This document shows, piece after piece, positions 19,147-61,112 of a stretch of 64,000 nt of DNA. The notes beneath the pieces were generated by a model that was given only the letters and a program-made list of their open reading frames with translations, was not told the DNA's origin and did no database searches. Position numbers and translations under genes: made by a program. Source of the DNA: Candolleomyces eurysporus (Eukaryota; Basidiomycota; Agaricomycetes; Agaricales; Psathyrellaceae); contig JANBPK010000845.1 in assembly GCA_027579435.1 (NCBI GenBank), positions 1 to 64,000 on the forward strand. Reading direction: 5' to 3'. Position 1 is the stretch's first letter. Each line of letters starts with the position of its first letter.

Positions 19147-20158
19147 TTATACACTAGCCTCTGTCTTCTCAGTGCCCCTAATACTCTCGGCAGGAGCCGT
19201 GTTCGAACCGCTTGGTTCTTCCACTGGGGAGGATGGACAGCTGAAGTATACCGTGTCCGTTGTATTCGAACGTGAGGCGCCGCTTAGAGTAGTGGCACCG
19301 TTCGGGGCGACATCACCTGGACCATTTCGGCCGTCTCCTCCACTCAGGACGATGGCTAGAAAGTTAACATCTACATAAGCAAGATTTTACGCATGGACTG
19401 CACAGGGCTGCTTACTTGCTCCTTCACCGACCTTGGTATATATATGGCCTACCGTAAAGTTGCTCGCCCTATCAAGTATGGATATCTGGAGTCGAGGCTG
19501 CGCCGGACTTCCTGCTAAAGGGTGTCGATGAATGAACAAACAATGATACACGATAAGTCAAACTTTGGATTTGAATTTTACTCACAATTGGGTGAAGGTC
19601 GTGATTCTGGCGAAGGGGGTGTCGGCATTGGATCGAACCGCCTCTCTTCATCCAACGAGTCTATCTCATTGCACAGTGAATTCATGCCCCTAGTGAGTGA
19701 GTTTATATCTCGGGCAAATGAGCTCATTCCCATAGAGAATGAAGCCCAAGGATCAGCCTGCTCATAAGCCCACGGAGCCCTTCGAGTAGAAGAGGAAGGA
19801 ATGCGGGTTCGTCGGCCGTTATGTGCCTGTTGAGTCTGATGATCGCGCGTAGCACTTGTCATGTTGATACCAGGTCCGTGCGAGATATTAAAACCTTCGA
19901 TTATGAATTGCGATGCGTTAGGGAAGTAGGAAATGTTGCTCCTAGCATGGTCATCATGCATGGCCGATGCATTGGCCCCACCTGAATATATTAGGCCAGC
20001 ATCATTTGCAGGTGGATCGTTCAAGCCTTGGCTGGGCCCTGTATCTGTGTCGTCGTCTGGTTCTCTCAGGTAAGTACTTCTACCGAGCTAATGGAGCAAC
20101 GCAGGGTCGACGCACCTTCCAAGGGATGATTCATAGTCGAGGGTTGAACAATATGCAT
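19147..20158 (-). CDS. Low-complexity protein with two NASxF-type motifs
   Basis: Four exons (20116-20158, 19586-20038, 19416-19514, 19147-19355) join to exactly 267 codons plus stop. The start follows CACC. The protein holds the cluster's upstream-type motif twice: FPNASQFIIEGFNISHGPG in exon 2 and ILDRASNFTVGHIYTKVGEG in exon 3. Between them lies a Ser/Arg/Pro-rich stretch and a Met/Ser/Asp-rich helical patch. The C-terminus is Gly/Asn/Thr/Ser-rich and apparently disordered. No signal peptide or membrane segment. This is the leftmost member of the motif cluster; it lacks the FNG motif. Function unknown. Confidence 0.7.
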
Positions 20159-21061
20159 GGTGCTGTGGAATCAGCTCTCCGATTCGATTTAGTTCAAGTC
20201 TTGAAGCCCGATGTTGATAGGTGAGATAAAAAATTGCTCTAGGGCCGTCTTTTATACGCTTTTGTTGGCGGCCCAAACTGCGTCACTAACAGAGTACAAA
20301 AAAGCTTCATGCAAACGCGGTTGCTAGTGTAGACGCTAATTGAGAGATACGGAGCTAAAAACAACAAAGACAGACTCAATTTGGCTACGATATTGTGACA
20401 GGTGGGCCAAACCAAACAATCAAAATGGGAAGAATCACGACAGCGTGGCCATGATTAGGCTGGGTGTTGCGGTGGGCGCCACTTTCAGACGCCCACAGAC
20501 CCAACAAAAAACAATAGGAACATCACAGTACAAAAGCATGAGCCATTCCCGTTGCAAAAAGGTGTTATGAATCCTGAATGTTTGCAGCAATTGAGTGATC
20601 CGACACCCATTAGAGTCAGCGGCAAACGGTATTTTATGACCTTGTTTCGTTTCCAGGCCAGCTCCCCACTTCGGAGCCCGATCCACTTCGCCAGTGTAAA
20701 GGTACAGATACTGTTTGAATTCTTTATAACAGTGACGATTACAGAAGGACAGTCATAAAGAGACAAAAAGATCGTCGACCTGTTGAAGTTTAATCTGTGG
20801 CACCGCAAGTCGGTGGGATCAAGGTGACGAAGGACAGTGTTTTTCTCTATATTTCTTTCTCAACCGATGCTTTTTGTTCCCCTCATATTCATACAGGTGG
20901 CTGACCTAGATGCATCTCCGACTGCTCTACTACTCAACGAGCATTGCGTATAGATTATGACCGCTACATGACTAGATGCGTTATGCCCAGTAACCCACTA
21001 CCCTTCATAGTTGAAGTTCCGGTACCACTAACTCCCATTCCCCATCTAAGTCGGATACTGG
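20159..21061. other. Intergenic, about 900 bp
   Basis: Between two leftward cluster genes. Only short incoherent frames; probably the promoter of the left gene and the 3' region of the right one. No repeat seen. Confidence 0.5.
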
Positions 21062-21960
21062 TCAACCCTCAGCTTCATCTGATCGCTTCCTCTGTGGGTC
21101 AATTCCCATCCTTTGCATGCTTTCCCCTGTCTGAGAATCCTGCTCGGCAATGTTAAGCTCGTCTGAAATATGTAAAGACGACGCGCTTTGAGTGTTTCCT
21201 GAGCCTCTGTGTTCCAGCTGGGGGCGAGAAGCAGTGTTATTTTTAGTAGCTGCCGTTGTAAATCCGTCGAGTTAGCCTGGCTCCTGAATGCACATGGTAA
21301 GGAGGCTCGAGACTCACTATAACCACTATGCCTTTGCCCCTTGGAGCTATAATACGCTACCACCACTTCTAAGAAGCCTTCAGGGATTTTGTCGTATCCC
21401 TCAAGGCACATGCTCTCGTAGTGATCTTTCACCGGACCGCAAACCCCCCCNGTTGAGAACCATCCCTTTCCAATAAAATTGCTCAGAGGTCCGGACAGTG
21501 TTGCCATTTTCGTCCAGTTCTACTAGTTGAAGCCAGAAAGTGGGGGTAAGAACCAATTCACATTCAAATGAGAGCTATCAAGAAGCTCAACATGCGACGG
21601 CGTCTGTTGTTACTCCGTCTGTTTCCCCCTTCCATGGAGGCCCGCTGGGGCATGTACAACACCACGCGAATTGGTCATTACGAACCCGCCTATATAGCTC
21701 GTTACAGGATCGTCAACAACGCCATTAAATCTCGGTGTTCTAGTATGATTACTATGCTTCGAGTAATGGTTGTGGCTATCACTGAAGCTTTGAGGCAGGG
21801 GAATGTTCTGCAGTGTAGCATAGGAGGCCCTCCTGACGTTGTTCAGATGGCGGATATCATGACTGGCGTCCGTGTCGCGGTCCATGAACCTCTCCTTGTT
21901 GGGCTGATCTCTCTGGTGACATGGAGGGTGAGGCAGAGGATAAAACACCCTGTCTTCCAC
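21062..21960 (-). CDS. Two-motif FNG cluster protein (5' end unresolved)
   Basis: Exons 21614 to about 21960, 21318-21519 and 21062-21249 join in one frame. Exon 1 carries a type A motif (TPRFNGVVDDPVTSY followed by GGFVMTNSRG). The middle exon carries a type B motif (VLNGGVCGPVKDH followed by LEGYDKIPEG). The last exon gives a Ser/Glu/Gln-rich tail with ESMQRMGI, parallel to DSMQKMGI in the paralogue at 56.2 kb. The middle exon reads correctly only if the N at 21451, beside a run of C, is dropped. The natural start is unclear; a decayed third motif lies just upstream. Protein probably mostly disordered. Function unknown. Confidence 0.6.
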
Positions 21961-22023
21961 CTAATATCGTCGATTCGTCGAGTCAATTCAATGGGTTATT
22001 TGGCTGGTAAGGATATAGTCGAT

Positions 22024-22100
22024 ACTCACTATAATGGCTTCTCGCTAGTTGATGACTGGGCCCGTAACATTGCCATTGAAAATGGGCGCTTCGCTGAGTT
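22024..22100 (-). pseudogene. Decayed FNG-type module
   Basis: The leftward frame reads SEAPIFNGNVTGPVIN, then a TAG stop, then REAIIVS, a near-perfect type A module. It has a stop where family members have an aromatic or Asn, and another stop a few codons upstream. It is the remnant of an additional module or of a second gene copy next to the gene at 21.06-21.96 kb. Confidence 0.7.
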
Positions 22101-22839: not shown

Positions 22840-25569
22840 CTAGGTTTCGTCATTCCTCCCCACTGACGAAGGCAGGGGAGTGATAGTGCAGTTCAAGGCG
22901 GTTCCCGTAGATGTCGCATTCCTTTCCGGAACCACAAGGGAAAAGTCACCCGGGACCTCGAGCTCTACAGCATGCGCAAGGTTTGTGAACAGCAGCTGGG
23001 AAGGTGCTGAATTCGCTGTATTCTTCCCCTTCGACCACCAAGCTTCTGCGGTTCGGATCAGCCGCTTTACCCACCCCTTCGCCTGGGGTTCCTGAGCCTC
23101 CTTCGTCAAAGACCAAAGGCAAAAAAGTCGGATTCTGACCACGTCAGGGCGTGAGTCGACTAGAGGAGTGAATTCAACCGCGGGTAGTTTCTCCTTGTTA
23201 ATCTCCCATGAAGCTCTATTCTCGTCTCGGTGAAACTTTCTCGCGTATATGATCTTGGGCATTCCATCTTCGGTGGTGTCGTGGTAGATTTCGAGGCGAT
23301 TCTTGGTGTTAGTCTCCGTCCTTCCTTCCTCTTCTTCTTCCTGATTTCTATATCGAAGCTGAAGCCTTGCGCCCCGGGGTATATTCACCCCTGCACCAGC
23401 TAGCCACTCAGTCTGTTTGGACCTATTTTGTGTCTCGCTTTCATTCATTTGGTCCGTAACGAGTGCCTGCGAATCAGGCCGTGTTGGTCGGCAGTCAGCC
23501 GAGTCATTTCCAACAAGGACATATGAATGCTGTGGGGTATAAACTTGATTCCTTGGACCCATAAACCGAATATTTGTAAAGTTGATCTTCTCCCTCTACA
23601 ACAAGATATGATGTGAGCAGTTGATAGGTGGAGAGAAACAATAATTTACGTACTGTCATTGTGAAGCTGGCTCGAGTTTCAAAGCCATCAATACCGGCCC
23701 TCCCATTTACCATCAACTTGTTGGATACTTTAAACGATACTTCGCCAGCTTTCCCCATCTCACGTGGTGCTAAAGGCGTTGTGGACTCAAACGTAATCCC
23801 TTCAAGGATGCTGGCATCACACTCGGCCGCGTCTTCGCTTCCCCCCGACCTCGTGAACCTGAATGCCCCTCGCTCCTGGTCGGAGGTCGTAGAGACGTAT
23901 ATGTATTCAGGGCCCATAACGTCAGCGAGTTGCTTTCCCAGCTTCTTGAGATCGACGATGTGGTGTTGGAGAATGGTGAGCACGATCTCTTGAGTAGATC
24001 CCATCCTAAATGGTACATACGGGCCTTCTATGAAACCTACTTGCGCCACGAGGCGTTCGGGGTCGATTTTCTGGGCTCGGAGTACCTCTTGAACTCTAGG
24101 CATTCTCAATTCAAGGTCTAATTTAGCGCCTTCAGCAGCAAGGACCTTGAACCTCAGCTTCGGGGCAACTACCTCGGAAACATCAAAGGAAAATGACTTT
24201 GGGTTGGAAGAAGATGGACAGGCGTTGGAAGATTGCGTTTCAAAAGAGGATGGATTCCCGCAGGATAAGCGACGCGCGGCAGGGGATTTCGGATAGAGTT
24301 TTCGGGACTTTGGATAAACAACACCAGCTCGGGGAGGCAGGGGCAGCGGATGGAAGAGATCAAGCGAAGGGTGACTATGCAGGCTTTTTTGCTCGTTGAT
24401 AGATCCTGCATCTTCTGGAAAGGATGAGAGTGCCGTTTTGAATGAGGCGTAGGATTCGATGCTGGGTTTAGACTGCAAAGATGTTGTCGACGGAGAACAT
24501 GGTAAGTAAGGTTCTGGGTCATAAATCTTGTCAGATAACTGTTTGGCTGATCGAATTCATGCCGCAGATGATACCTTCTGATGATGATGTATTACTCTTA
24601 GCCTGTATGCGCGCCTTAAGAGTCTCTTCGACGGTGAAAGAGGATGGAATCGATTTCCCAGGCGTTGTTGAACGTCCATCTAGATAGCATGACGTTGCAT
24701 CAACAATGAATACTGCAAGACTTGCACCAGATGGATGAAACTCACGTTGAAAAGATGGACGACTCAACCTAGTAAATTTTTCCTCTTTACACAGAGAGGA
24801 TGAAAGGTCAGAAGCGTGGTTTTGTGACGCGACTCGCGCTCTCCCGGCCGAAATCCGTGCAATATGTGTCGAAAAATCGGATGGAAGAGTGGCAGATGTA
24901 TGATCTGAAGTTCCAGAAATCGAGTAAGGGTGCAAGGGGCGCTCTTCTTCACAGTTGATCAACTCTGGAGGTCGTGGTCGATACCGGTCGGTGTTGGCTC
25001 CACCGCTCGATGGGCGAACGTTGGTGCTGGTGGAGTCTGGAGATAGACGCCGAGTCCCGCTATGAGAAGGGTGTCCACCATAGCCGTTGGAGCCTGTATA
25101 TTGTGTCAGATTCTTTTCTATGTGACTAGTGAGGTATCAACAAACCAAGTGCGGGTGGATGAGATGAGTGGTCATAGAGAGAATGTTGGGACGAGTTAGA
25201 TCGCGAGTGACGACGCTCTTGTGAGGAAGGGCAAGTCCGTGCGAGTTTCTCACGAGGTGATCGAGGTCGCCGGATTGGAGAGGAAGGAGTGTACCGAAGC
25301 CCAGAAGGTTCGCACGTAGACAACGGCGCATAGGAGTAATAATCTCGGGGTAGGGGTACAACTAACCCATTCTGTAGGGAATTTTGATTGTTTCTACCAC
25401 TTCTGAAGTTCGTGTTGTTGTTGCTACCATTGACTACGCTGAACGGACCATGTACGACCTCGGGGTAGGTAGGACCTTCGTGGTTATGTGTCACTTGAAT
25501 CCCACCCACCGTGAAGTTCGACGCTCCCTGGAGAATAGAGAATTTCCGGCTGGATAATAGCTCATCCAT
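22840..25569 (-). CDS. 828-residue protein: N-terminal ASNF motif plus unrecognised C-terminal domain
   Basis: Five exons (25146-25569, 24746-25093, 24540-24679, 23654-24472, 22840-23595) sum to exactly 828 codons plus stop. The N-terminus has the cluster motif (ILQGASNFTVGG, then a His/Asn/Gly-rich stretch with VVHGPFSVVNG and LQNGLVVPLP). Residues about 150-420 are Ser/Pro-rich and probably disordered. From about residue 400 a folded-looking part begins (LAAEGAKLDLEL, VAQVGFIEGPY, EIVLTILQHHIVDLKKLGKQLA). The last exon includes FMGPRNQVYTP and VRIRLFCLWSLTKEA and ends in a beta-rich segment. This C-terminal region is paralogous to that of the gene at 37.5-39.4 kb: same exon break before the GPR motif, same order of blocks. 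I recognise no domain. One donor (GTTATC at 24539) is unusual. Confidence 0.75.
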
Positions 25570-26595
25570 ATTGTATCTGCGGAAATTGGAAATGGGTTAG
25601 ATATGCAGAAGGCGAGGGTGAGACATTTGACAACGCACTTCTCGAGAGATGTCTTGCAAGTCGCGGCCTGCGTCGCCCAAGGCTCGTTGCTAACAAAGCG
25701 ATTTTCAGAGAAGACAGGCAAGGGAAGACTGGTTTTCGAGAGACCAACCGACAGAGATATATTGAGCGTCAATCACAAGTCAGGGTAATGTGATTATTGT
25801 TTCAGGAATAAAGAGCCTTGACGAAGTACAATAGGAGCCCACAGACATCAATCGCCAGCAATGCTCAACATGCTATTGTGTTGTGTTTCGTCGGCGAGGT
25901 ACATCAATATGCAAACGCAAACATCGTACATACGATCTGTATACACAAAGCAACGTGAGTAATCGTTGACACGCACAAGGGACAGGTACGGACCTCCGAC
26001 AACGCAGGTCGCAAAAGAAAAGAAAGTCAGATGTGTGGCTGTTTGATCCTGTTGGCGCCCGGCAGCACCACGGCAATCACTGCCTAACACGCCGAGGTCC
26101 GATTGCTGGGAATCGCTGCTGGGAATCGCCGAGAGGTGTTCCAGCGAATTTTCAGCATACGCAGCTGCAGCGTCGAAGATCATTTTCGCGGTATGTGTGT
26201 CCCTGTCAGGAGTCCGTACCAGTGGTGTCATTGCGTGTATTCATCTTACTCGCCCAGAACTCACCAAACATAGAATATCATTCAGGGGACCTTGAGACCG
26301 TACATATCGTAAGAGCCGTTACATGGGTGGCAGGAGGTCATACGTAGCATGAGTGCGAGGGTTGAAAATAGAACAGTACAGAGCGCGCGCTGGCGTTCGA
26401 TAGATACCATTACTCTAACCATGAAGCCAAAGAGATCGATATGCTCGGTCGCGACCAGGGATAAAGCAAAGACATAAAAAAAAAAAGCGCCAAANGGGTC
26501 TAAGGAAGAAGGCTGTGATGAATCAATCTTCGAGCCTGAGAGTAAAGGGGAGTGGGTAGGCAAGCATAGAGATACCGAGAGTCATGAAGCGAACT
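25570..26595. other. Intergenic, about 1 kb
   Basis: Two leftward frames (25491-25772 and 25848-26231) have no family features. N at 26495 lies near a run of A. Nothing recognised. Confidence 0.45.
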
Positions 26596-28121
26596 TCACA
26601 TCAGAGTTCGGCGGCGCCAATCTTCGTGTGCCATAACCTTGAAAGGGTTGGTGTCCGGGAGGTCACTGTAGGGACTCCTAGGATTGGACTCTGGTGGCGT
26701 TAGAGGGAATTGAGTAGGCGAGGCCTGGCTCTCATCGAACTTGTCGTCGAGACTCAGGTTCTGCATTCCATCGCTGACGCTACCAGTACTTAGCCAATTG
26801 TTGACCTTCTTCTTGGTCCTTTTGGTGTAGCTCTCCTCGAAAGTTTGCCCATCTTGACTGGGGGCTGGGGATGGGTATGCATCGGCAATGCTTGGAGAGG
26901 GAGTGCGAACGCCCTCACGAATAGGAGAAAGTCTAGAGCCACGCGAGCTCGCTGGTGGTGACCTGACGCCCCGGGAACTGGACGGAGCCGAGGGAGGCAC
27001 AGTATGGATTGTTGGAGGAGGAGAAGTAAAAGTGTGACTGGGAGCCCAGGTTCCTGCTCTATGAAGAGTTCCCCACTGTGAAGGGCTTGACCCGACAGTG
27101 CTCGGAGGATCGACAGACTCCATATACTGCGAAGCAGCGTACTCTGAAGAGGGGTATTCAGAGGCAGGGTATTCGCTAGGATCCACAGACATTGGCTCTT
27201 CAAAGTCTTAGAAACCGGTTAGAAATGCATCTCGGAACGTCTTTGACAACCAAAAAAGCTCACATTGGCCGCCGCCTGGAGGATTGTAGGCACTATGACC
27301 GCCGTAAAAACTACCACCTGAAGGCTGGCCTGTGAGGAACCGTTTATAAATAATTGATCAAGATTAAACAGTTCAAATTATGTACTTACGATCGTAGGCT
27401 CCATTATTAGGATGCCAGCCTCCTTGCTCGTGATAGCTAGGATCATCGCGGCTTCGCCCGTACCCACGGCCTTGTGGTGTTTCAAAATCAGCTGTACACG
27501 GCGATTGAGGGGGAAGGATAGACTCACGGTCACGACTCTTGCCCCCACGTCCCCAAGATGAACTATTGCTTTCCGAGTGCTCGCCTCGGCCTTGGTAGAT
27601 GACATTCGTACCTGTGTACGAGTTGACACCGCCTTCAATGTCACCGTTGTGGATTGGCGCTAAGGCACCTTCTTGGTAATATATTCCAGGTGAACGCACA
27701 CTCTCTGCTGAGGCAAAAGAAAGAAAACAGCGTCATTTGACGATGAATATCAAGAAGTGACGAGGAGAATGTGCTCACTCTTCTTCCTCTTCTGCGATGG
27801 CATTTGGGTCGGGGTCGTCTTAGATCTCCCGGCCCCGCTTAGCGTTGCGTATGTGACGGACCCTCCGCTGAACGTGTTCACACCACCAGTGATATTGCCA
27901 TTGTAAATCGGTGCCTTAGCATTCTCTTGATGGTACACGGTGGAGTTATTGACGGAATGATCATTCACTGTATTGTAGGAGCGTCGATCATGGTAGTTGC
28001 CCTGGATGTTCCTGAAGTTGACGTTGTTCATCTTGAAGTTGCTTGCTTCCTGGAAGAAAGACATGTTGGATCCTCCTGGGGAACCGTCGCGCGATGACTC
28101 GGAAGAAGACGACGAAGACAT
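26596..28121 (-). CDS. 445-residue Ser-rich protein with one ASNF motif and two FNG motifs
   Basis: Exons 27779-28121, 27390-27707, a 66-bp exon near 27270-27335, and 26596-27206 sum to exactly 445 codons plus stop. The start MSSSSSSESSRDGSPGG is almost the same as that of the gene at 39.4 kb. Exon 1 then gives EASNFKMNNVNFRNIQGNYHD and a type A motif APIYNGNITGGVN. Exon 2 gives a second motif, APIHNGDIEGGVN. The remainder is Gly/Arg, then Ser/Pro/Tyr-rich with tandem SEYP-type repeats, and ends in a charged tail. No signal peptide or membrane segment. Function unknown; probably a largely disordered cytosolic protein. Confidence 0.75.
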
Positions 28122-28995: not shown

Positions 28996-30204
28996 CTACT
29001 CCGAGTCGTCAGAAATATTTCTCGGACGGCGAGTAGGATTGCCGCTCGCAGCCAAGTGCGCCGTCAGACCGGACATCTGAGGTTGGGGAGATCCTCTCGG
29101 AGGAAGCGTGGGCACAGCTAGAGGGCGAGCAGGAGAGCGAGACCATCGGTGAGTCTGCTGTCTCTGGGGCGCCGGCTGGTCCGGAGCTGGTTGAGAGGAA
29201 GGACCGCGGTTCATCCCAACGCGATCCGGTCGATTCGGATTCTCCATCCTCTTAGGCATCCTCATCGTTTCCTCGTCCGTCTCAGATTCATCTTCGTCGG
29301 AGGTATCAGAGCTTCCACTGCTATTCATATCCCACGAGGAATGGCTATTCTGCTTCAAATGTGCCATACCCCGCTTAAGGCTGTACTGCCCAGGCCACTG
29401 CTCCGACTCTTCATGCTGCTGTGGCGGGGGAAACGCAGCGCTCGTGGGCCTAAAGCTTGGATTCTGAGGAGGATGTTGAGGGTAGCCTTGAGAACCCCTG
29501 GGTGGGAACGCTGGCGGCGGACCGTGGTGCTGCTGCTGTCGCCACGCCTGGTTGCCTTGAGGTTCACTGTGCGGACGATGAAATGGATCTGGAGGGGGCG
29601 GACCACGCTGCTGTGGGAAGGCCCGGTATTGTGGTACAGCTGTGGCCGTAGCTGTGAAATCTTGATCGTGAGGACGTGGGCCTTGAGCTGGACGAGGACC
29701 GGGAGGAGGGTGTTGGGAGAAGTTAGGTCTAGCTGGCGCAGCAGGTTGAGGAGGAATACCCCCTCGTTCGGGCTGGGGCATAGTGCCTTGGTTGAAGGTA
29801 CCTGCATAAATTTGTTAGTATTCGATCGCCAGAGGTTCATGGAAGACGGAATCCGAGCCTTACCATAAAAATTACCGGAATTCACGTTCTGGGCATCCCT
29901 GAAGTTATTCACGGGTGAGTGGTGATGTGTTGCAGGTGCATCTAATTCAAAAAGATCATTCAACCAGTGAGAACTCACCACAACGACGATTCAGCGCTAG
30001 ATACTCACGATAGTCCCCAGCGTAATTAGTTGAATGGTCGTTGTACGAGTAGTCGTAGTTTGTCGTATACCTGTTCCTGTTTCCAAACGTATTCCGGACG
30101 TTTCGAACGCGATGGTCATGATAGTCTCCCTGGACGGTATTGAACTCGACGTTGCCCATACTGAAGTTCTGGGCATTCTTGAAGAATTCCATCCGCGGTG
30201 GCAT
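28996..30204 (-). CDS. 359-residue Asn-rich / Pro-Gln-rich protein (paralogue 1)
   Basis: Three exons (30009-30204, 29864-29941, 28996-29801) sum to exactly 359 codons plus stop. The N-terminus MPPRMEFFKNAQNFSMGN leads into VEFNTVQGDYHDHRVRN and then an Asn/Tyr-rich stretch. The 26-residue middle exon continues it (HHHSPVNNF, NVNSGNFYG). The last exon is Pro/Gln-rich with a DSDT-type acidic patch and an SSGSSDTSDEDE block. It is a close paralogue of the gene at 32.4-34.0 kb in every exon, and the duplicated flank extends beyond the genes. It lacks a clear FNG motif. The composition is prion-like (Asn, Gln, Tyr, Gly, Pro), so aggregation or condensate formation is plausible but unproven. Confidence 0.75.
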
Positions 30205-32345: not shown

Positions 32346-32444
32346 TTTGGTATGTAATAACACATGCGGGTATCTTGAAAATACATCAATAGCGATAGCA
32401 TAGGAGTGTCCAGCAAATTCAAACGATACGAGAGCGAATAAGTA

Positions 32445-34010
32445 TTACTTCTTCTTGGAGGAAAAGATGCTAAACGGATTCCTGTGTTTCTTCTTCTTCT
32501 TCTTGTCCTGAGTCGGTGACGACGGCGACCCATTATTGATCGAACCAGCATCGTCGTCTTCATCAGAAAACATCTCTGTCGAACGGCGTTGAGGATCAGC
32601 AAAACGCGCGGCCAGAGCGGAAACCGGGGGCGCGAGTAAATCGTCGGTGGCAACAGGGGCAGCAGCATGAGATGGTGCCTGTTGAGGCTGCTTTTGTTGC
32701 AGTACAGGTTGAGGAGAAGGACCAGGTGCAGGAGAAGGGTCCCGTCGAACCGCTGGTGGCTGAGGACTGTGACCACGACTCGGTGGGGCAGCAGGTGGAG
32801 CCGCATGCTGAAGGCCCTGGTTGAAAGCCATGCCTTGAGGTGGAACAGGCGCCGCCTGCTGAGTAGGACCCAGGTTCACAGCCATCCTGGTGCCTCCTGC
32901 AGCAGTCGCAGTGACGCCTGCTCCGACGGAGAGGCGGGCCCCGAGAGCGCCACCCCCACCACCAAAGTTATCAGGTCGATTCGGATCCTCCATCCTCTTG
33001 GTCTGCTGCATCCGCTTCTGCCCGCCCCTCCTCATCGGCCCCTCCGTATCCGACCCATCTTCATCAGAGGTATCCGAGCTCCCACTGCTAGCTTTTTCCC
33101 ATGAGGCGGGACTGTTTTGCTTCAAATGCGCCATACCCGCCTTATAGGCGGACTGCCCGGGCCACTGCTCCGACCCCTGCCTCTGGTGCTGCTGTGGTGG
33201 AGGCGGCTGCTGCTGCTGGGGAGGAGGAAACGGAGCGCCTGGAGGCCTGAAGTTCGGGTTCTGAGGAGGGTGCTGCGGGTAGCCTTGAGGTCCGGAGGGT
33301 GGGAACGCAGGCGGTGGCCCTCGCTGCTGCTGCTGCCAAGCCTGGTTGGCCTCAGGCATCGGCGGTCCACTCAGCGGACGATGCATAGGATGAGGTGGGT
33401 CTGGGCTGGGTGGACCACGTTGCTGTTGGAACCCTTGGTGCTGTGGTACAGCTGTGGACGAAGCTGTGAAGTCTCGGTCGTTTGGAAGTGGTCCTGGTCC
33501 TGGACGAGGGCCGGGAGCAGGTGGGCCTTGAGCGAAGCCAGGTCCACCGGGTGGAGGAGGGCGAGGACTGCTTGCTCCTCCGGCCTGGGTTGTGGTGCCT
33601 TGGTTGATAGTACCTGTAGACACCCATTAGCGATCGACCGTTCGACGAAAGACGAAATTGGAGCCTTACCGTAGTTTTCACCGAAATTCGCATTCTCAAC
33701 ATGATCGATGTTATTCACAGTTCCATGGTAATGCGATTGAGGTGCGTCTGATTCAAAAAGAATGCTCAATCGATAAGAATTCACCACAACGATGCTCCAG
33801 CGCTAGAGACTCACGATAATCCCCTTCATGATTATTCGAATAATCGTTGAACGAATTGGAGTTATTCGTATAGTACCGATTCTTGTTTCCGTACGTATTC
33901 CGGACGTTCCGAACGCTATAGTCGTGATAATCTCCTTGGACGGTGTTGAACTCGACGTTGCCCATAGTGAAGTTCTGGGCGCCCTTGAAGAACTCCATCC
34001 GCGGCGGCAT
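32445..34010 (-). CDS. 480-residue Asn-rich / Pro-Gln-rich protein (paralogue 2)
   Basis: Three exons (33815-34010, a 78-bp exon near 33669-33746, and 32445-33613) sum to exactly 480 codons plus stop. The N-terminus MPPRMEFFKGAQNFTMGN, VEFNTVQGDYHDYSVRN and the Asn/Tyr-rich stretch match the gene at 29.0-30.2 kb nearly residue for residue. The long last exon is Pro/Gln/Gly-rich with SSGSSDTSDEDGSDTE. It carries an extra C-terminal part absent from the shorter paralogue, ending in a polylysine tract and NPFSIFSSKKK, possibly a nuclear localisation or membrane-binding tail. Function unknown. Long open frames on the opposite strand are composition shadows. Confidence 0.75.
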
Positions 34011-37532: not shown

Positions 37533-39389
37533 TCATTCCACGTGCATAGTAAAGTCGACGGCTTGAGAGGAATGGGAATCGTGGTCTGCAATCGTCCCCG
37601 AGAAATTGCTAGGGAAAACCACTTCCACGAGATGAACGAAATTGGTGAACATCGGCAAAGACTCTATTTCTCTTCCTTTGCCCTTCTTATCCTTGCGGAT
37701 TCTCTTCAACAGATTAATCGTCCTGGGCGTCTGATAGTGGTCTGAAGGAAGAGCCCAAAGAGAAGCGAATTTGACCGCGACCTGTTCGTCCTGCGTTTCG
37801 CCTACCAAGCGACCCAACGAGAAATGGGCAACCATCGTGGAGTCATCCGACTTGCGGGGTGGTCGGAAATCCGTCCTACGAAGTGCAGAGGTGTTGAACT
37901 TGAGCTTCCTGGCACCAGATACCGCCTCGTGATGGATTGAGGTGACCTTCTTCGTCCATTCCTCCCCCTCTTGTACTTCTCTCCCCTGTGTCGTAGCAAA
38001 TTCTACGGCAACTTCTGGCCCAGTCTTCCCGGCAACCTTAGCTATAAACTTCTCCACAAAGTTCCCAAACGTCTTATGGCCCTTGATGACCTTGATTTCG
38101 CCTCCATGGCTTTGCTGCTCCGCGGGATACTGGATCGCACGATGGCTCCTAGTGCCATCTCCTGAGACTCGAACGTGCCCATATTGGATGTGGAAAGGAT
38201 TGTTCGCAAGCCGTGGTCCTACGAATGAGATCTCGTGGAACTCGATCGATGATTCATTTTCAGTTTTCTACTCACCAAGTAGTCCGTTAGCATCCACACT
38301 GACATTTAATTGCTGTAGTTACATACCTTAATGTCGAACGCAGCGTGTGTAGCCACCTCCACTTCGATATCATCTTTACTGAGTTTATCGAAAGTCCTGA
38401 TCTCGATGCATGCATCATCTGCTCGCGAAGCAGGGAGAACAGATAGATCTCGACTAATAGCGTTATCAACAAGCTTGCCTAGGGCCGCATTTTCGAAGTT
38501 CTTCCCCCTCCGCCTCTCTCTTTGTTCATCAACTTGAGACGGCAAAGCCGAAGACCTTGTTTTTAGAACTTCGCCGTCAGGCAGCCGTACCGAGATAATG
38601 TATGACGGCAGACATTGACGTAACTCGTCCATCTTGATAGCCTTGGCTCTCGCGGATGGGTCCAAGATTGTGATGACGATTTCTTCCTGGTATTCGAAAT
38701 TCCGATCGTCGAGAGAAAGCGCCTCTTGATCGAAGCCGACTTGGGCGATCCATTGATTTCTCCTGATCCCCCTGTCTTCTAAGATTCCTGCAATCGAATC
38801 CATCTTGCTCACGATGTCTTTTTTGGCGCCATCGGCGACAATAATAACATGTCGCAGCCGCGGCGTAGGGCTCTTGAGAGTCTCCGGTGTTGGCATCTCT
38901 GGAGGGATTGCTTCTTCCCCTCGATTTACGTTCGTCAGTTGACTATTGACATGTCGCGGCTGCGGCGTAGGGCTCATGAGAGTCTCCGGTGCTCGCATCT
39001 GCGGAGCGATCACTTCTTCTTCTTCTTCCTCTTCTTCCTCTTCCTCTTCCCCTTGATTTACGTTCCTCAGTTGACAATGACCACCAGGAAGTAATGAGGG
39101 AAATACACTCACTCTTCTTCTGCGTCCTAGACCCGTTGCCCCAGTTGACACCGCCAGTTATCTTGCCGTTGAAAATTGGTCCCTTGGCACCATTTTGATG
39201 GTACACATTGGAGGTTCTGACGGAATGATCATTCACTGTTTTGGAGGAACGTCGATCGTTATAGTTGCCTTGGATGTTGTTGAAGCTAGCGTTTTGCATC
39301 TCGAGGTTGAACGCACCGTGGGAGAACGACCCGTCGGATCCTCCTGGGGTACTGTCTCGCGATGACCTGGAATACGACGACGACATCAT
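37533..39389 (-). CDS. Chimeric protein: FNG-motif first exon joined to the unrecognised C-terminal domain
   Basis: Exon 1 (start 39389, or 39386) reads MMSSSYSRSSRDSTPGGS, then NASFNNIQGNYNDRR and a type A motif GPIFNGKITGGVN; it is clearly homologous to exon 1 of the gene at 26.6-28.1 kb. After an intron of about 61 bp come a Glu tract and two imperfect copies of a short segment (APETLMSPTPQPRHV / TPETLKSPTPRLRHV). Next is a domain paralogous to the C-terminus of the gene at 22.8-25.6 kb: WIAQVGFDQEAL, EEIVITILDPSARA, FVGPRLANNP, then KFASLWALPSDHYQTP. The stop is at 37533. Two different parents in one gene indicate exon or promoter shuffling. Role unknown. Confidence 0.7.
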
Positions 39390-46892: not shown

Positions 46893-47055
46893 TCCCTGTG
46901 GTCACTCAGTCAGGATTCGTTTACCCTCATGTAGCGGAGATCGACAAACCGTTCTGCCATGGTGCCTTTGGGGCACGCCTCCAGTCATTGTCGTGTGACA
47001 GAGCGCAATCCGTACCAGTCTAGTTTAGAAGTGAAGATGTAAGCGTATGGATGGC

Positions 47056-48899
47056 TCAATATTCGAGTAAGAATGGGCCCACCATCTCCAACAACAGTTT
47101 GTTGATCATATCGCAAGGGTGGAAAATCGTCTGAGTTGGATACATTCAGAAGTGTGAAAGAAGGGCGGACGAAGAAAGAGCTTATTACCGACTGGGGAAA
47201 AAAATATACTTGTATCTCGTTGGGTAACGAGGCGGCATTCCCGGTGGACAAGTTTGAGGAACTCGGACCGGATGAGTCACTGGACTGATAGCTCTCAGGC
47301 TCAATCCCCGATGACCCATTTATTGGACCGTCCATTCCGCCACTCTCTTGATCATAATCGAGCGTTTCCGTTCCAGAAACAGTTTGCTTCGACGCATTCA
47401 TTCGCGCACGGAATGCAGCGGAGAATGATAACTTGAATCCCTGAAGGAACAGGCTTTGATTCTTTCCTTCAACAAGTTCCGCCTCTTTCACCGTATTGGG
47501 CCAAAGCCGAGCCTCCGTGGCTGGTCCCCGACGCTTCCAATGATAAATTCTTCCTTTGCTCGTACTGTTGTCTCCCGCATATCGTTTAACGAGTGTGAGG
47601 AGCTGACCAGGCTTTGCGTCTTGAGATGCTGCGAGATTCCAACCGTCGCTTTTGATGCATCCCGTTACAACGTAGAGGTCTTTTCCTACCGCTCTGGCAT
47701 TGCTTGCATGGCAATATACAGTCCCAGCGTGTTCGATCAGGAACTTTTTGAGAGGGTCGATATTCTCCAGCCTTTCCAAATCCGCTGGCCTGATGCAGGC
47801 TAGCATAGCACCTTCTTTGGGTTCACAAGTAAAATCAAGCTGTGTAATATATCTACCGTCGGCGGATGTAATCAGTATAGAATCCCCTTCCCGGCAAACA
47901 GCAGTCTCTGATAAAGCTGAACTCGCCTTCCATCCTCTGATAGGTGAGTCTCCGAGGACATACCACTTGGAATTATATGGCCTTCTGGGAAGTAATCACG
48001 AGTAACGGTTTTGCCACAGGGCAGTCGCGAACTCCCTGCGCAGTCCTGTTCCCAAAGGTTGAAGATCTTTTCAAACCCCTGGATGAGATCAAAGGTTCCG
48101 ACGTCACCTAGGACAACTCCCTTCTGGCTCGTTGGCGGACAAGGGGAAGGACGCCAGCACGGAAGGCCCTCAATGCAGGAGCGAAGCATGTGAAGAGTAT
48201 ATATCACCGCATACGTCGTTTCCTCGGATTTCATCGACTCCAAATCGATGTTACGGATTGAAGACTATGGAAACGAAAGGATTCAGTCGAGATCCAACAG
48301 GTGTCTGCACAGAATCGTACGTACTATCTTGGGGTTCCCATCAGCTTGCATTTCGGAGTTTTCCTTTGATCCAGTCGCATCGCCCAGATCAGTATCCCCT
48401 TCGTCGTTTGCATCCTCTACTTCCGGGGGTCTCTCAGACGATAGACCAATATCGATAGAGTGGGCCGGTGCGGAGGCGGATCTGGTCACTGGTGTTGCTT
48501 CTCCAACGGTTGAGTGGTGAAGTATGTCTCGGTTTGCAAGCGCTCGAAAGAATGCGCGTGCTGATTCGATAACTCGTTGAATGAAGCCACTCCTGGCTTC
48601 CGCGTTTTGCAGGCTAGTAGCGAGGGTCGGTGTATTGAGATGAACATGGACCTCAATGTTGCCTTGTGCGGTGATAACATTTGGATGATTGTGGGAGCCT
48701 GAGAACGAATTTCCTCGACTGATACATTCAAAGGACCTCAATGAAGTTGCTAATTGTAGATCGTTCAGGGCTCTAACCTCTCATACGTAGTGTCGACACC
48801 CCCAGAGATGTTGCCGTTGTAAGCGGGCCCTTGTGTAGCGTCTTGAAGAATTACCGTTTCGACGGACTCCATCGTGCGGCTTTCTTCCTCAGATGACAT
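47056..48899 (-). CDS. Agaricomycete LYVVTGC/GDVG-family protein with an N-terminal FNG motif
   Basis: The first exon (start 48899, MSSEEESRTMES) contains ATQGPAYNGNISGGVD, the cluster's FNG motif, spliced to RGNSFSGSHNHPNVITAQGN. Further exons give WRPSP, GVVLGDVGTFDLIQGF, TVTRDYFPEGHI, LDFTCEPKEGA, KDLYVVTGCIKSDGWNLA and NQSLFLQGFKLSF. These are the diagnostic blocks of a large agaricomycete family of unknown function (consensus LYIVTGCDK and IGDVG, from memory). Intron 47130-47209 joins NEIQ to TIFHPCDMINKLLLE, the family's usual start of the C-terminal part; the frame ends soon after at the TGA 47056-47058. As I recall the family normally continues about 30 residues, so the tail may be truncated. 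Confidence 0.75.
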
Positions 48900-49279
48900 G
48901 GCTTGTTGGAGAGGCTAAATGACCCCGACGAACTTCGGGAATGGCAGGTGAAGATGGAAGGAAGAGCGAGAGATGGAACCGGCGTCTATCAGCATCATGG
49001 CATCATGGATGAACAGCTTTCGATTGCGGCAAACAATTCTGCCGGATTGCCAATCAAAGACCAAACAAAGGGCGCCCTGTTCCGCTTACGGTGTCTTGAA
49101 CATTGCCCATCCCCTGGAAACAAGGTATCGCTTCGGGAACTCTGCCGCATCCAGGGCTGATATCGACGTCAAACAGGACCGGCTCTCTTTTTTTGGCCCC
49201 AACGTCCTGCTGTTACCGTGGATCGGCCACTTTGACAGCGTCGATTGGCAGAATTACATTCAAGGGGTACGTAGGTTGG
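48900..49279. other. Intergenic, about 380 bp
   Basis: Upstream of the leftward gene. A rightward open frame runs through about 48973-49270 but has no recognised features. Confidence 0.4.
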
Positions 49280-51247: not shown

Positions 51248-51746
51248 ATGTCCTCCCTCAATGATCTAGACTGCACACTGGCAGCCTACAAGCAAAGCCA
51301 AAACAAAGGTCCAATTTTCAACGGACCAATTCGTGGCTCCGTAAACACGCATGCTTGTGGGGTTGTTCTCTCTAATTACCCTCCCGTTCTCAGCGGTATT
51401 AGCAGTAAGCGAGGTCAATGTGTACCGGAGGGAATAATCTGACAGAGACAGTTAGCCCAAAATTCAGAGCAGCAGGCCATGCAGTCGCCTGATGGTATGT
51501 CCATTCAATCGATTTGTTTGCGTAGGAACAACTGACCCCCGTCATTCCGAAATCGCGTTTTATCAAGGGTCCACACCGAATCCAAGCCGTGTGGTCGACC
51601 AGAGCAATAACGAAGGTCCCATCTTTAATGGGATGATTGACGGCTCAGTGATTGCCTTTGATAATACCTTTCGCATTGAAGGATATCCACAAATCCCTGA
51701 AGGCGCTGATAAATTACTTGAGATCCATAAGAAGAGTAAGAGGTGA
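51248..51746 (+). CDS. 124-residue two-motif FNG protein (small paralogue 1)
   Basis: Introns 51405-51455 (51 bp, gtaagc donor, ctgac branch) and 51495-51567 (73 bp) give exactly 124 codons plus stop; without the first intron a TGA would stop the frame. Exon 1 carries a type A motif GPIFNGPIRGSVNTH followed by GVVLSN. The last exon carries a type B motif GPIFNG MIDGSV followed by RIEGYPQIPEG and a Lys-rich end. Almost nothing else is in the protein, so the two motifs appear to be its whole function. Paralogue of the gene at 54.3 kb with a duplicated upstream region. Confidence 0.8.
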
Positions 51747-54275: not shown

Positions 54276-54777
54276 ATGTCCATCCATCCCTCCAACACTA
54301 ATCCTGTCTACAAGCAATGTCACAATAAGGGGCCGGTGTTCAATGGGCATATTCGTGGCTCCGTGAACACCCATGCTGGCGGGATCGTGCTCTCCAATTT
54401 CCTTCCCGCCGCCGATGGTGCTCGGTGCAAACGACCTCGGCGTGCTCCGGCAGGGGCACCTCGAAAGACACAGCCAGGCAAGTCTTCGAAGCGGCAGGCT
54501 ACTCGGTTGTCTCATGGTAAGCCCTTGAAACCGATCATTCTATTCTGACATTACTAGCCTTTCGAGTCATTGAAACCTTTATCTAGAGCATGCAGAGGGC
54601 ACCGACGTAACTCCGAGTCGTGTAGTCGAGCAGAGTAACAATGAAGGTCCTATCTTTAATGGGATGATTGACGGCCCTGTGACCGCCTTTGATAATACCT
54701 TTCGCATCGAAGGGTACAATCATGTCCCCGAAGGTGCCGAAATATTGCTCGAAGTTTTTAAGAGGAGTAAGATTTGA
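54276..54777 (+). CDS. 143-residue two-motif FNG protein (small paralogue 2)
   Basis: Exons 54276-54516 and 54587-54777 with a 70-bp intron give exactly 143 codons plus stop. Type A motif GPVFNGHIRGSVNTH then GIVLSN; a basic Arg/Lys/Pro linker (KRPRRAP, GKSSKRQ); type B motif GPIFNGMIDGPV then RIEGYNHVPEG and a Lys-rich end. The exon boundary separates the two motif types exactly as in the larger genes at 56.2 and 59.8 kb. The basic linker could be a nuclear signal. Function unknown; candidate seed-like small protein of the cluster. Confidence 0.8.
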
Positions 54778-56030: not shown

Positions 56031-56097
56031 CGTGACTCGAATGAAGAATTGAACATGAGATCGAGGCTATGTCCGAAGAATCCCTCATATACCCTTA
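56031..56097 (+). promoter_or_regulatory. Conserved promoter block of the larger two-motif genes
   Basis: Matches 59627-59692 in order: cgtgactcgaatgaa, then gaggctatgtc, then a TATA-like catatacccttaac about 100 bp before the start codon at 56186. Conservation of an upstream block between paralogues suggests shared regulation. Confidence 0.5.
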
Positions 56098-56185
56098 ACG
56101 GAACTGACGTTTCTACAGGCCTTCCTACAGGGATCCCCCGCAATTTCTCTGTCACCAACTCACGGTATCACCTCTCATCTCGACT

Positions 56186-57491
56186 ATGTCTGATTCAGAG
56201 TACCCCTCTGCTCCTCAGCGCCACGCAAAAGGCAAAAAGGGCAAGAGAGCTGGTAATGGCCAGTCCTCCCAGATGGAATTCATGAAGGGCGTGCACAACT
56301 TTAGGGTGAACGATGTCAGTGTCCGTCACACGGAAGGCGACTACCATGACCACAGCGTCAAGAACACCCACAACGACTTCTCCAGCCACGTCCGGAATGA
56401 GTACGACCAGAGTAACAGCAGGGCACCCATTTTCAACGGCAACATCCACGGTCCGGTGAATAACTATAATCATGGGATCGTAATCTCCAAGCCCCGCAAA
56501 GGCGAGAAAGGCGAGTTCGATGCTCCTGGATATGCCCAACAAGGGCAAGAACAGAAGTCATTTCGTTGTGAGTCCTTTGGGTGAAGTTTTGTGATCTTGT
56601 CCTCACCTCTCGTTTACCTCAGCGAAACGGGACAAAGACGACAACTTCATCCGAGTATTCGACCAGTCCTTTAGCCATGCGCCGCTGTACAACGGAAATA
56701 TTGGGAGGGAAGTGAACAACCATGATCATTCTTTTTCTTTNGGAGGGATACGATGAACTTCCCGAGAATTTGCCACAAGTAATTGAGGCTCGTCATAAGG
56801 GCGTGAGCCAACAGGCTCGAGTGTACAGTGAGTGTTAAGCCCCTTCTACGTCTTTTATTCTAGCTGTTAGCTAAAACAACGAATCAACTACGATAATTGG
56901 AGATTGGAGCCCTTACCCGACTCCTCTGTCTAGGCATGGTGGCGCAGGAAACGGCCAATGTAAGTTGATTCTGTAGCAATTTGGACGGCTTGGACGTCAA
57001 ATTCTGACCTCTGTATCAATGCAGTCTTTGGCTCGCCGATGTATACTGAGCCTTCTCCGTACAGTCAACCTTACGGTCCGCCAGCAAATCCGTGGCCTCA
57101 TCCGTGGAATGGCTATCCCAGCGAAGGGTACCCAACCCCTCATTCTAACGTCGCTAGCCCAGGATATCACCCAAATTCAGGATACTTCCATCAACAGCAG
57201 CCTGCTCCACATGGCTATGGCTACCAGCCCCACCAATTTCATGGGAACCAGGACATGAGTGGAATGAACAGTAGAAGCCGTAACAGCAGGTCAGGCAATC
57301 GCGGCAACGCCACGGACGAGGGGATCGCCCAGGCTGCAGACAGCATGCAGAAGATGGGTATTCACTCCGCAGAAGGATCTTCTGAGGAGTCTGGAGATGA
57401 GACAAAGTCAAGTCCAGAGAGGAGCAGGAGGTCTACAAGTAAGCGCCCCGGGATATCCCAAACTCAAACTGGTCACCGATCTGTGACATGA
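56186..57491 (+). CDS. 357-residue two-motif FNG protein
   Basis: Exon 1: Lys/Gly/Ser-rich start, then MEFMKGVHNFRVND, VRHTEGDYHDHSVKN and type A motif RAPIFNGNIHGPVNNY. Intron 56568-56622. Exon 2: type B motif APLYNGNIGREVNNH then SLEGYDELPEN, readable only if the N at 56741 is removed. The next intron has two possible donors: gtgagt at 56828 or gtacag at 56823. Only the latter, with acceptor 56933 and intron 56960-57024, gives one frame of 357 codons. The C-terminal exon is Pro/Tyr/Gly/His-rich, then Asn/Ser/Arg-rich with DSMQKMGI and an acidic Ser tail. Splicing of a last putative intron could extend it to about 57716. Paralogue of the gene at 59.8 kb. Function unknown. Confidence 0.7.
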
Positions 57492-58189: not shown

Positions 58190-58340
58190 ACAACCTTGTG
58201 GCTTTCACAGGAACCAAGGGATACAAACAATGCTGAGTCTTACCGGATTTTAATGGACCTGAGACCACCGCATCTCTACGGAACGACAAGCTAGCCCTTC
58301 GACTGGGGCGGTTGAGATGGCGGCAATATTTCCCAACTGC
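58190..58340. repeat. Dispersed repeat, copy 1
   Basis: About 150 bp match 63845-64000 in the same orientation: ccaagggatac, aatgacaag / aacgacaagct, and ggttgagatggcggca. On the minus strand both copies read CRHLNRxSRxASLSF, so they may derive from a coding fragment. Confidence 0.7.
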
Positions 58341-59626
58341 GAAATTAGACCGCACGAATTTACCCAGAGGATGCAGGCGCTGATACAGCCTCAGAAAATC
58401 ATAGCCTTGAAGCATTACAGCCTCGACGTGAATCTGGTCTACTCCCCTTGGTACTGTCACAATATCGCCATTTGCCGCTGAAACAGCCTAAGACAAGCTG
58501 TTTTCCTAGGAAGGAGAGTGCCCGGTGTCAGCTATGGTATGACACAGGCCTGAACATTGCTTCTCAGCTTCTAAATGCCGCCTGACAATGTCGAAATTTT
58601 GCATGCTGTGGCTGAGAATTTCTCGACGACAAAGGGCTTTCGTTGCCATTTTGGCACCGACTCGATGCTGTACAAAGGAAGTCCTATAAATTGGGCCTGC
58701 TCAACGGCTGTGTGTTCCACTGTACAGCACTGCCCGCGGTTCCTTAACAGCAATCTCGCATTCGCGGCGAAGACACACAAGAAAAGGACTTTACCAGCCT
58801 CACATACTTAACTTCACCGTCACCACTACGCTCGAGTACTAAGATACTCCGATGACGGTGTGTTCCCTCGGCTCCATCCGAGGGCGCGCAACAGTTTGGC
58901 TCACCAGACTCCGGTCATCCGTCCCTTCTAGCTGGAGAAATAGGGCTGTCGATATAATTAGGTGAGTGGAGCTACCTGGGCCTCATTTCCTGACAGGAAG
59001 CATGGAAGAATGGGTGGGCGGTTGCGGCCACCCCTCTTTCAGATAGTTTGGGTTGAGTGCTCATGAGAAGGTCTGAAGCCTTACCAGGATTTCGTAAAGC
59101 ACAATTCAGCGCAGTGGACTCATTTCAGAAGATTCAGTAAGTCGTGCAACTACGATCGGACGCCTTGTTACTTGTCGCGATCATGAGCGTCCTTTTAGAC
59201 GCCATCATCACAGCCTCACTCGGGCAGTGTTACAGCAATCACGAATCTGGTTAAAAGTGTCAGGCCACGCGGCGCATTGTGTGCACTAGCCACCTCTTCT
59301 CGTAACATCGGGATGAGGAAATTCCGCCCCAATATCTGGTCGTTCTGAATTGACATAGGTAGCGTTCGACCTCATCGGTAAAAATGATTTTCGAATAATA
59401 AGCCTCCCTCGAACCTGACCGACATAAGGGATACGTGTACTCTGCTTTATGTACATGAAGCTTTCACCATGGAAAACGGACAATAGCAACAAGAGTTAGT
59501 GACCGGAGAGCACGAGGCTCAGGACGCTGGAATTAGAGGTATATTCTTACGGAAATGCGACGAGCTTTTGGGGCAAACCGAAAGATCGACAGTGACCCAC
59601 ATACGCTCGTTATTCTTCTCGTGTCT
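58341..59626. other. Intergenic, about 1.3 kb
   Basis: Only incoherent frames on both strands. No repeat recognised beyond the dispersed copy to the left. Confidence 0.45.
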
Positions 59627-59692
59627 CGTGACTCGAATGAATATAATCCGAGGTAGATTGAGGCTATGTCTGACAGACACTTATAACCCCAA
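59627..59692 (+). promoter_or_regulatory. Conserved promoter block (second copy)
   Basis: Counterpart of 56031-56097: cgtgactcgaatgaa, gaggctatgtc, and TATA-like acttataacccc about 100 bp before the start codon at 59786. Confidence 0.5.
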
Positions 59693-59785
59693 AGAAAANG
59701 AGAACCGTTCGCACTCGGGCTTTCCTGAGAGAGCGTTTGACTCCAACTAGCCTGACTCGCTGGTAGTCCTCTTCTCATCTCAACA

Positions 59786-61112
59786 ATGTCCGATTATCTC
59801 CCCAGCTCTCGTCGCAGCTCAAAGAAGACGAAATCCAGCAGGTCTAGTTCTGGTCTGTCCTCCAGTCTCGATTTCCTGAAGGACGCAAAGAACTTCACCA
59901 CGGGGGATGTCAGTGTTCATCATACGGATGGGGACTTCTACGACCGCAGCACGAAGGACACCCACAACAATTACGCGAGGCACACCAAGTATGAGTTCCA
60001 TAACCCGAATAGCAGAGCGCCCATTTTCAATAGCACTGCTGAGGGCCTGGTGACGAACTATGACGGCGAGTTCGTGATGTCCAACTCGCAGGGCACATTT
60101 TATCCCCAGTCCTATCCTATCGGTGATATGCAAGATGCACCCCAACAGAAGCCATCGTACGGTAAGTTTACTGTGGAATGACAGGAATGTGATCTGGTGC
60201 TTACCTGATCTTTGACTTTAACCTTCAGTGAAACGTGATAAGCACGGCAGCGAGGGCTATGTTTTCAGTCAGCCGAATAGCTATGCACCAATGTTCAATG
60301 GGCCAGTTCGCGGTCCGGTGAAGAACCACACCAATTCCGTGTCACTTGAGGGGTATGGAACGGTCCCAGAAGGCTTCAAGGAACCGCTCGATGCTTATAG
60401 TAGGTCCATGAGCCGAAGCGATCACCGCTATTGTGAGTGTTTGGGTCACTTCTTGCTGTTCCCATCGAGCCACTGAGCTCACTCAACCGATCGACCATAA
60501 TAGCTCGAGGCCGTAATGTCTCCGAACCTGTGCCGCCGCTGGGCCATCGTAGCTCTGAATATGGCCAATGTAAGCACTTTTATTGTACCTGACAGGATAC
60601 ACGCTAGATTCTGACGACCCGATTTTTTGATACTAGACTTCAGCCAGCCAATGCAGAATGAGCCCTCCGAGTCCTTGTACAATAATCAGCCCTACGGCTC
60701 ACCAGCGAATCGTCCTGCCCGTCACCGGAAAGGCCAGAATAGGGGAGCATATCCAACGCCTTCTTCAAGTATCGGTAGCCCGACGTATGACCCAAGGTCT
60801 GGACACTTCCCTCAGCAAGGTCCTGCCCAACACGGCTATGGGTACGAGTACCAGTACGGCTCCCAGGGCGCAGTGGGTCGTGGAGACGGCACCAGGTCCA
60901 GCAGTCGCGGCGATGTTGACGACTGGCTCTCTCAGACCACGGAAAGCCTGGGGCAGTTCCACATACACCCTACTGAGGACTCGTCTGAGGACTCTGAAGA
61001 CGGCCCAGCACATAACCTGGATCGGGGTGGAATCGGCGGTTCTATCAAAGGTTCTGCGAGCAAGTCTGGTGGTAAGCGCCGAGCTGCCGAGCCGACTGGC
61101 CCTCGAGTGTAA
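59786..61112 (+). CDS. 373-residue two-motif FNG protein
   Basis: Introns 60162-60228, 60433-60503 and 60570-60636 give exactly 373 codons plus stop. Exon 1: Ser/Lys-rich start, LDFLKDAKNFTTGD, VHHTDGDFYDRSTKD and a diverged type A motif RAPIFNSTAEGLVTNY then FVMSNSQG. Exon 2: type B motif APMFNGPVRGPVKNH then SLEGYGTVPEG. A small third exon, then a Pro/Tyr/Gly-rich C-terminus, an acidic Ser tail and a basic end. All exon phases match the paralogue at 56.2 kb. No signal peptide or membrane segment. Cleanest intact model of this subfamily. Function unknown. Confidence 0.8.

Follow-up and report, generated by a model that had tools for sequence, protein, structure and literature searches.

Comparison with Described Amyloid Signalling Systems

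Amyloid signalling by NOD-like receptors (NLRs) is established in ascomycetes, and in mushrooms it is based on motif scans. Here we describe a cluster of genes in Candolleomyces eurysporus whose products share a short Asn/Gly motif (NG motif), examined in a window that comprises bases 1–64000 of contig C1133 (261,689 bases; assembly of 65.9 Mb). One motif is common to NACHT NLRs, which have a single copy just upstream of NACHT, and to the cluster proteins, which usually have two; motif-bearing genes other than NLRs are hereafter called carriers. The genus is placed in Psathyrellaceae, Agaricales (PMC12786890). In this mushroom, NLRs bear one copy of the motif and the non-NLR partners encoded by the cluster mostly bear two, and the motif also occurs on a single helical-domain protein from a sister species; the interest of the locus is that specific pairs of partners can now be put to the test and that some of the proteins may form a class of adaptors or decoys.

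The closest described system is the NWD2/HET-S pair of Podospora anserina, in which HET-S has two motif copies and its NLR has one (PMC4518210; PMC12881547). The NG motif resembles that system in its layout of one copy on the NLR and two on the partner, in being a short hydrophobic motif punctuated by Gly/Asn and, for the C. aberdarensis protein P0005 only, in the combination of a probably helical N-terminal domain with a C-terminal motif. However, the NLR motif here lies 122–292 residues into the protein and not at its extreme N-terminus, no NLR was found in the cluster, and most partners bear the motif close to their N-terminus and lack any known effector domain. The rule for HET-s-related amyloid motifs demands hydrophobic residues at positions 5, 8, 10, 16 and 18 and Gly at 19 (PMC4518210); the NG motif does not follow it, with two of the five hydrophobic positions occupied and Gly absent in the best register. 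A genome search with the HET-s Pfam family PF11558 gave no match and was uninformative, as the control matched nowhere either; PF11558 was also absent among the Pfam matches of P0001–P0005, g54 and g60. The PP/RHIM-like and sigma motifs are likewise short, NLR-linked and fungal. The NG motif lacks the G-hydrophobic-Q-hydrophobic-G core of the PP/RHIM-like motif, the columns that flank its conserved Q being mostly polar, with 17% and 3% hydrophobic residues.

Amyloid-like motifs at the N-termini of Agaricomycete NACHT NLRs, of which there are dozens per strain, were reported by Wojciechowski et al. 2022 (PMC9815663), the survey to which searches for an earlier description mainly pointed. It found one motif common to two BaMLKL C-termini and many NLRs in Moniliophthora roreri and Fibularhizoctonia, whose counterparts in Sphaerobolus and Gymnopus are HeLo proteins with a double HET-s motif, the Sphaerobolus one sharing a contig with an NLR. 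Table 1 of that survey includes NLR05, NLR08, NLR20, NLR22, NLR29 and NLR44 without effector or neighbour partners, and virtually no NLR-side motif was co-located with an effector-side motif. Its motifs were derived from N-termini shorter than 150 residues; in the present NLRs, the motif begins between residues 122 and 292. The N-terminal block of the cluster proteins fits the survey's wording (a hydrophobic triplet and a G[DN] ending), and the sections consulted mention no gene cluster whose products are two-copy partners lacking an effector domain. The NG motif might be one of those that the survey depicts as logos. Since such motifs, some of them shared with MLKL-like/HeLo proteins, are already in print, a preliminary description of this DNA overstated the case in calling it a candidate undescribed system.

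Repeated Motif Copies in the Window

The consensus of the motif, as derived from alignment A1, was VYxQxxxxGPIFNGxIxGxV, and 12 clear and 3 degenerate copies were recognised in the window. A regular expression applied to the six-frame translation of the window found 11 copies. A strict regular expression found 10 copies and none in 100 Markov (dinucleotide) resamplings, and a looser one found 11 copies versus 1.33 on average and 6 at most in 100 resamplings. Because circularity was to be avoided, a profile was restricted to the 17 of 29 rows of A1 that come from beyond the window; it recovered the 12 window copies at 13.7–56.9 bits, and the best score in 20 shuffled windows was 9.3. The motif family asserted in the preliminary description was hereby confirmed as real.

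The degenerate copies lie near 22.08, 21.73 and 21.44 kb. The first, which had been noted as a decayed copy at 22.0 kb, is immediately followed by a stop, the last has an adjacent N base, and only the 21.73-kb copy appeared in the scan with the outside-window profile, at a chance-level 3.4 bits. Five pairs of copies follow an A-then-B order (21.7/21.4, 51.3/51.6, 54.3/54.6, 56.4/56.7 and 60.0/60.3 kb), in which A leads into a GxVxSN-like tail and B into an EGYxxxPEG-like tail; the B tail at 56.7 kb is readable only in a different frame beyond an N base. The alternation of two types described earlier holds for these pairs but not for a third form without either tail, found at 27.9/27.7 kb (the two copies of g27), 39.2 kb and 48.8 kb. 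Similarly, the genes that had been placed at 37.5 and 47.1 kb are indeed carriers, but their motif lies at 39.2 and 48.8 kb and in one copy each.

Confinement of the motif to the window was rejected because residues 1–91 of g27, searched against the genome, had 57 matches including the query itself, many of them spanning only about residues 46–86. On C1133 the family continues past the window to about 117 kb; specifically, C1133:64463–116752 contains more motif exons at 64.5, 92.8, 103.8, about 112.6–112.8, 114.8 and 116.7 kb. A DNA pattern, CCNATHTTYAAYGG, was also tried and gave 54 matches genome-wide versus 24 for the reversed control, a count that was dropped because only L002 of the 8 loci cut out has the motif as judged by regular expression.

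The Motif Precedes NACHT in NLRs

Thirty motif loci were cut out of the genome, 6 of them window genes and 24 outside, some being tandem paralogs or exon pairs from a single gene. In 9 of the 30, a NACHT P-loop, confirmed by tblastn, was found downstream of the motif at a distance of 266–278 bp, and tblastn identified L002 as a tenth NACHT case. The nine loci are distributed over five contigs (C466, C703, C471, C221 and C490) and are not independent because several are tandem paralogs. Two frame pieces of the C466 NLR matched NPHP3_N at 24.9 and 42.6 bits (cut-off 24.8), and its match to the NACHT family PF05729 was 22.1 bits, under that family's own cut-off. When a 95-residue N-terminal stretch of this NLR was searched against proteins, nine relatives were returned, 3 from C. 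eurysporus and 6 from C. aberdarensis, all of which have NACHT-type Pfam domains; candidates in this search were limited to about 413–1314 residues, whereby the shortest carriers were excluded.

When a profile was built from these nine NLRs of the two species with no carrier included, its top twelve matches in the window were the 12 motif copies (10.9–40.2 bits), while the next window match scored 6.6 bits and the best in 20 shuffles 9.2. Furthermore, the alignment of g27 and g39 to the NLRs takes in about 11 residues that precede the motif, reading TVNHRSAPYS in the NLRs versus TVNDHSVNNS in g27. NLR N-terminal regions, with the motif start at residue 122–292, and separate non-NLR proteins hence have a short motif in common. 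Note that this genome is NLR-rich, since 150 of 1,340 PF24883 candidates were scored and 150 of 150 were over the cut-off (PF24883 also matches 9 of 14 prokaryote controls, 5 of them above cut-off); sequence relation and spacing, rather than mere proximity, bear the argument. Weak matches to the N-terminal block (E 0.055 and 0.46) precede NACHT-type domains at two loci, L082 and L083.

The copy number was determined with a profile of A1. A single copy was detected in all nine NLRs, and two copies were detected in all eight carrier sequences with both exons modelled, namely g27, P0001, P0002, P0003, P0004, g54, g56 and g60, which come from 7 genes because g27 and P0001 are the same gene. Two copies in each of P0001–P0004 were likewise found with the NLR-only profile, and g51 has one copy in each of its two frames.

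A Helical-Domain Protein and Conservation between Species

The motif was also found in P0005, a C. aberdarensis protein of 523 residues, as a module (TVNDHSVNNSEVYHYQNGKQPIFNGDVTGGV) at the C-terminus. P0005 is 63% identical to g27 over residues 395–466 and 49% identical to g39 over residues 388–467. Helices are predicted in its N-terminal part by low-confidence models, and a stretch with cysteine pairs gave zinc-ribbon Pfam matches, all of them under the cut-off. In its C. eurysporus relative on C101 (P0006), a block similar to the start of g27 (GGSNMSIFPNETEFSMNSTTFRN, 'GGSNMSxF') lies in the same open frame as the conserved region, and the linkage seen in P0005 is therefore unlikely to be merely a fused gene model. 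Paralogs of the helical protein are present on the cluster's contig, C1133, at 97.8–99.0, 149.8 and 222.2 kb.

Conservation in sister species, which had been suggested as a check on the motif, was observed: the relative of g27 in C. aberdarensis has 89% identity across 92% of a 165-residue query region, and that in C. efflorescens has 62% identity. In the C. aberdarensis gene model, a g30-like head is apparently fused to the g27-like protein, which suggests that these neighbours are syntenic. Ratios of nonsynonymous to synonymous substitution rates (dN/dS) were calculated by the Nei-Gojobori method for 8 exon pairs; in 5 of them the values were 0.39, 0.37, 0.36, 0.28 and 0.14. The ratios of the 8 pairs are rough because four dS values were near or above 1.

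Proposed Relay and Alternative Explanations

We put the chance at slightly better than even that the cluster encodes the partners, as opposed to the receptors, of an amyloid-type signalling relay tied to NLRs, with the carriers acting as adaptors, amplifiers or decoys. Shared sequence, position, copy number and conservation are observed, and we infer polymerisation, templating and execution by a mechanism that is modelled by analogy on NWD2/HET-S (PMC12881547). An NLR would sense a trigger and oligomerise, upon which its motifs would stack into a beta-arch seed, and this seed would convert the two-copy proteins to the same fold, of which the A and B motif forms may be versions. The resulting polymer would recruit an executioner, most likely the helical-domain protein with a C-terminal module seen in C. 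aberdarensis, and threshold and specificity would be set by the tail-bearing and mini carriers in the role of adaptors, amplifiers or decoys. The resemblance to NLR-tied amyloid signalling that the preliminary description had proposed is thus retained in part, given that the motif stands beside NACHT in two species in a one/two-copy layout but the window yielded no NLR. A more tentative extension, which we hold to be rather doubtful, is that free-standing two-copy prion-forming proteins with disordered tails constitute a third component class that could pass on, strengthen or block the signal that runs from many unlinked NLRs, each with one copy, to a small number of helical executioners, the A/B forms being a specificity code that diversifies by duplication.

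Several results weigh against the relay. With one NACHT query, tblastn found no NACHT in the window, and hence no adjacency of NLR and partner genes there; in the published HeLo set such adjacency is common, although not systematic (98 of 155; PMC4518210). Both g39 and the 48.8-kb exon have one motif copy instead of two, and neither the g39 parts nor the 47-kb frame gave a convincing match to a known family or solved structure. P0005 is the only protein with the motif C-terminal to a helical domain, its second copy is a 9-residue piece of 6.3 bits, and neighbouring genes can be merged in the gene models of C. aberdarensis, apparently also in P0002. In P0006, the C. eurysporus relative of P0005, an NG motif could not be recognised (2.1 bits), nor is there one in P0007, in P0009, in the partial sequence P0008 or in the C986 paralog. 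Comparison of the helical domain with Pfam up to E 10 and a PDB profile search with the helical protein gave no MLKL/HeLo match, AlphaFold models of P0005 alone and of a 5-sequence alignment had a mean predicted local distance difference test score of 38.5 and 39.8, respectively, and Foldseek found no match with E below 0.001 for the latter model. The P0005-type helical heads may be MLKL/HeLo-like, a likeness for which Pfam, PDB, the models and Foldseek gave no support. In addition, dN/dS was 1.09 and 0.63 in the two C1229 pairs, and one further pair was saturated.

Of the alternatives to the relay, an unlikely one is that the cluster proteins are host targets of some enemy and that NLRs copied the motif beside NACHT as bait, without any amyloid. 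Such an integrated decoy would agree with the occurrence of the motif on both NLRs and non-NLR proteins and with its nearly fixed position beside NACHT; however, that position is N-terminal to NACHT, the site of fungal signalling domains (PMC9815663), the one-to-two copy layout is of the HET-S type, and the hydrophobic pattern broken by Gly/Asn would fit a beta-arch. We give the same low weight to a housekeeping scaffold, in which sticky beta-arch heads and disordered tails would form gels or plugs (e.g., at septa) and NLRs would have gained the motif by domain shuffling. The carrier tails are rich in S, P and G, with 9.5–14% ILVMFW in g27, g56, g60 and P0003 versus 28.4% in a whole NLR, and the family is large with some decayed members, both of which suit a scaffold, whereas retention of the motif by NLRs of two species and its presence on a helical-domain protein do not. 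Slightly less probable again, the larger genes (22.8–25.6, 37.5–39.4 and 46.9–48.9 kb) might act as executioners by way of novel effector domains, the mini carriers being remnants; these genes do have long parts without a recognised family beside the block or the motif, and paralogs of the g39 domain occur on C43, but no known catalytic or membrane domain was found in Pfam and PDB searches and the 25-kb gene has no NG motif. Chance or low-complexity similarity, as might be suspected for a short and Gly/Asn-rich motif, is highly improbable in view of the absence of the strict pattern from all 100 resampled windows, the cross-recovery of the window copies by the NLR-only profile and the conservation between species.

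Gene Anatomy of the Cluster

Splicing by hand with GT-AG introns gave the carriers g27, g56 and g60 a common plan, in which an N-terminal block is followed by one motif copy in the first exon, a second copy in the next exon and a tail; the block has the pattern F-x-x-x-x-x-[ND]-F ... G-[DN]-[YF]-x-D-[RH]. The 373-residue g60 (59786–61112, forward strand) was spliced by hand at GT-AG sites into four exons (59786–60161, 60229–60432, 60504–60569 and 60637–61112); according to profile and composition, the block is followed by motif A at about 59993–60085, motif B at about 60261–60350 and a G/S/P-rich tail. In g56 (56186–57438, forward strand), exon 1 (56186–56567) contains the block and motif A (56399–56488), exon 2 (56623–56827) contains motif B from about 56655, and later exons lie at 56934–56959 and 57025–57438, the latter being the tail; a relative on C1103 is 82% identical. 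The frame of g56 exon 2 is broken beside a single N at 56741 and the break is read as assembly uncertainty. Single N bases stand beside homopolymer runs at 21451, 51851 and 56741, the first and last of them inside motif-bearing frames, and all three probably reflect assembly uncertainty. On the reverse strand, g27 (26596–28121; exons 27779–28121, 27390–27704, 27264–27329 and 26596–27206) has the block, copy 1 at 27849–27938, copy 2 at 27595–27684 and an S/P/G-rich tail, and it corresponds, with slightly different splicing, to the database model H1R20_g6743 (P0001).

Two mini carriers lie on the forward strand. The 143-residue g54 (54276–54777; exons 54276–54516 and 54587–54777) consists mostly of motif A (54306–54398) and motif B (about 54622–54711). 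The related g51 (51248–51743) has motif A in a frame at 51248–51442 and motif B in a frame at 51456–51743, and it may be decayed because its first frame closes with a stop. Remains of a carrier are seen on the reverse strand at 21049–22100, with motif-like copies near 22077, 21729 and 21440, stops and one N base.

The one-copy genes are on the reverse strand. A frame at 48768–48914 has its motif at 48792–48854 and is perhaps the start of a larger gene that extends to about 46988, with frames at 47875–48264 and 46988–47995 possibly joined to it by provisional splicing. The first exon of g39 (37536–39386) contains the block and a single motif copy (39114–39206), followed under provisional splicing by long frames of no recognised family at 38309–39157 and 37536–38267; a relative of the g39 domain at C43:166702 is 74% identical.

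Four further genes, at 34.0, 30.2, 25.5 and 19.9 kb and all on the reverse strand, have the N-terminal block ('FFxxAxNF...') without the motif. The exon at 33816–34010 (MEFFKGAQNFTMGNVEFNTVQGDYHD...) has a P/Q-rich frame downstream (32448–33626), and that at 30010–30204, 77% identical to it, has a P-rich frame downstream (28999–29814). The gene at 22843–25596 (GASNFTVGGIQV...) joins the block to a long part of no recognised family under provisional splicing, and the last is a frame at 19581–20087 (YFPNASQFIIEGFNISHGPG).

Pfam searches with ten window frames, including parts of g39 and of the 25-kb gene, gave nothing above cut-off, and among the window frames, carriers and relatives searched, only the NACHT-type domains of the NLRs and a DUF1996 outside the cluster exceeded it. 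PDB sequences were also searched with g60, a g39 frame, the 47-kb frame and profiles of the motif and of the helical protein, which gave nothing or weak unrelated matches. The DUF1996 match (PF09362, E 8.9e-35) is at 62769–63227, just past the cluster part of the window.

Elsewhere in the genome, C43:163790–187320 is a second copy of cluster parts: domains resembling that of g39 lie at 163.8 kb (35%) and 166.7 kb (74%), and a pair of g30-like and g27-like genes lies at 185.0 and 186.8 kb. Near-identical genes at C956:6827 and C63:32649 (L075 and L076) combine the N-terminal block with N/S/Y-rich repeats, and the NPFGKKKEK end of their downstream frame resembles the NPFSIFSSKKK end of the 32448 frame. 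In the window itself, minisatellite-like arrays with periods of 83, 227 and 249 bases occupy 4416–5446, and shorter arrays are located at 2717–3062 and 1053–1269.

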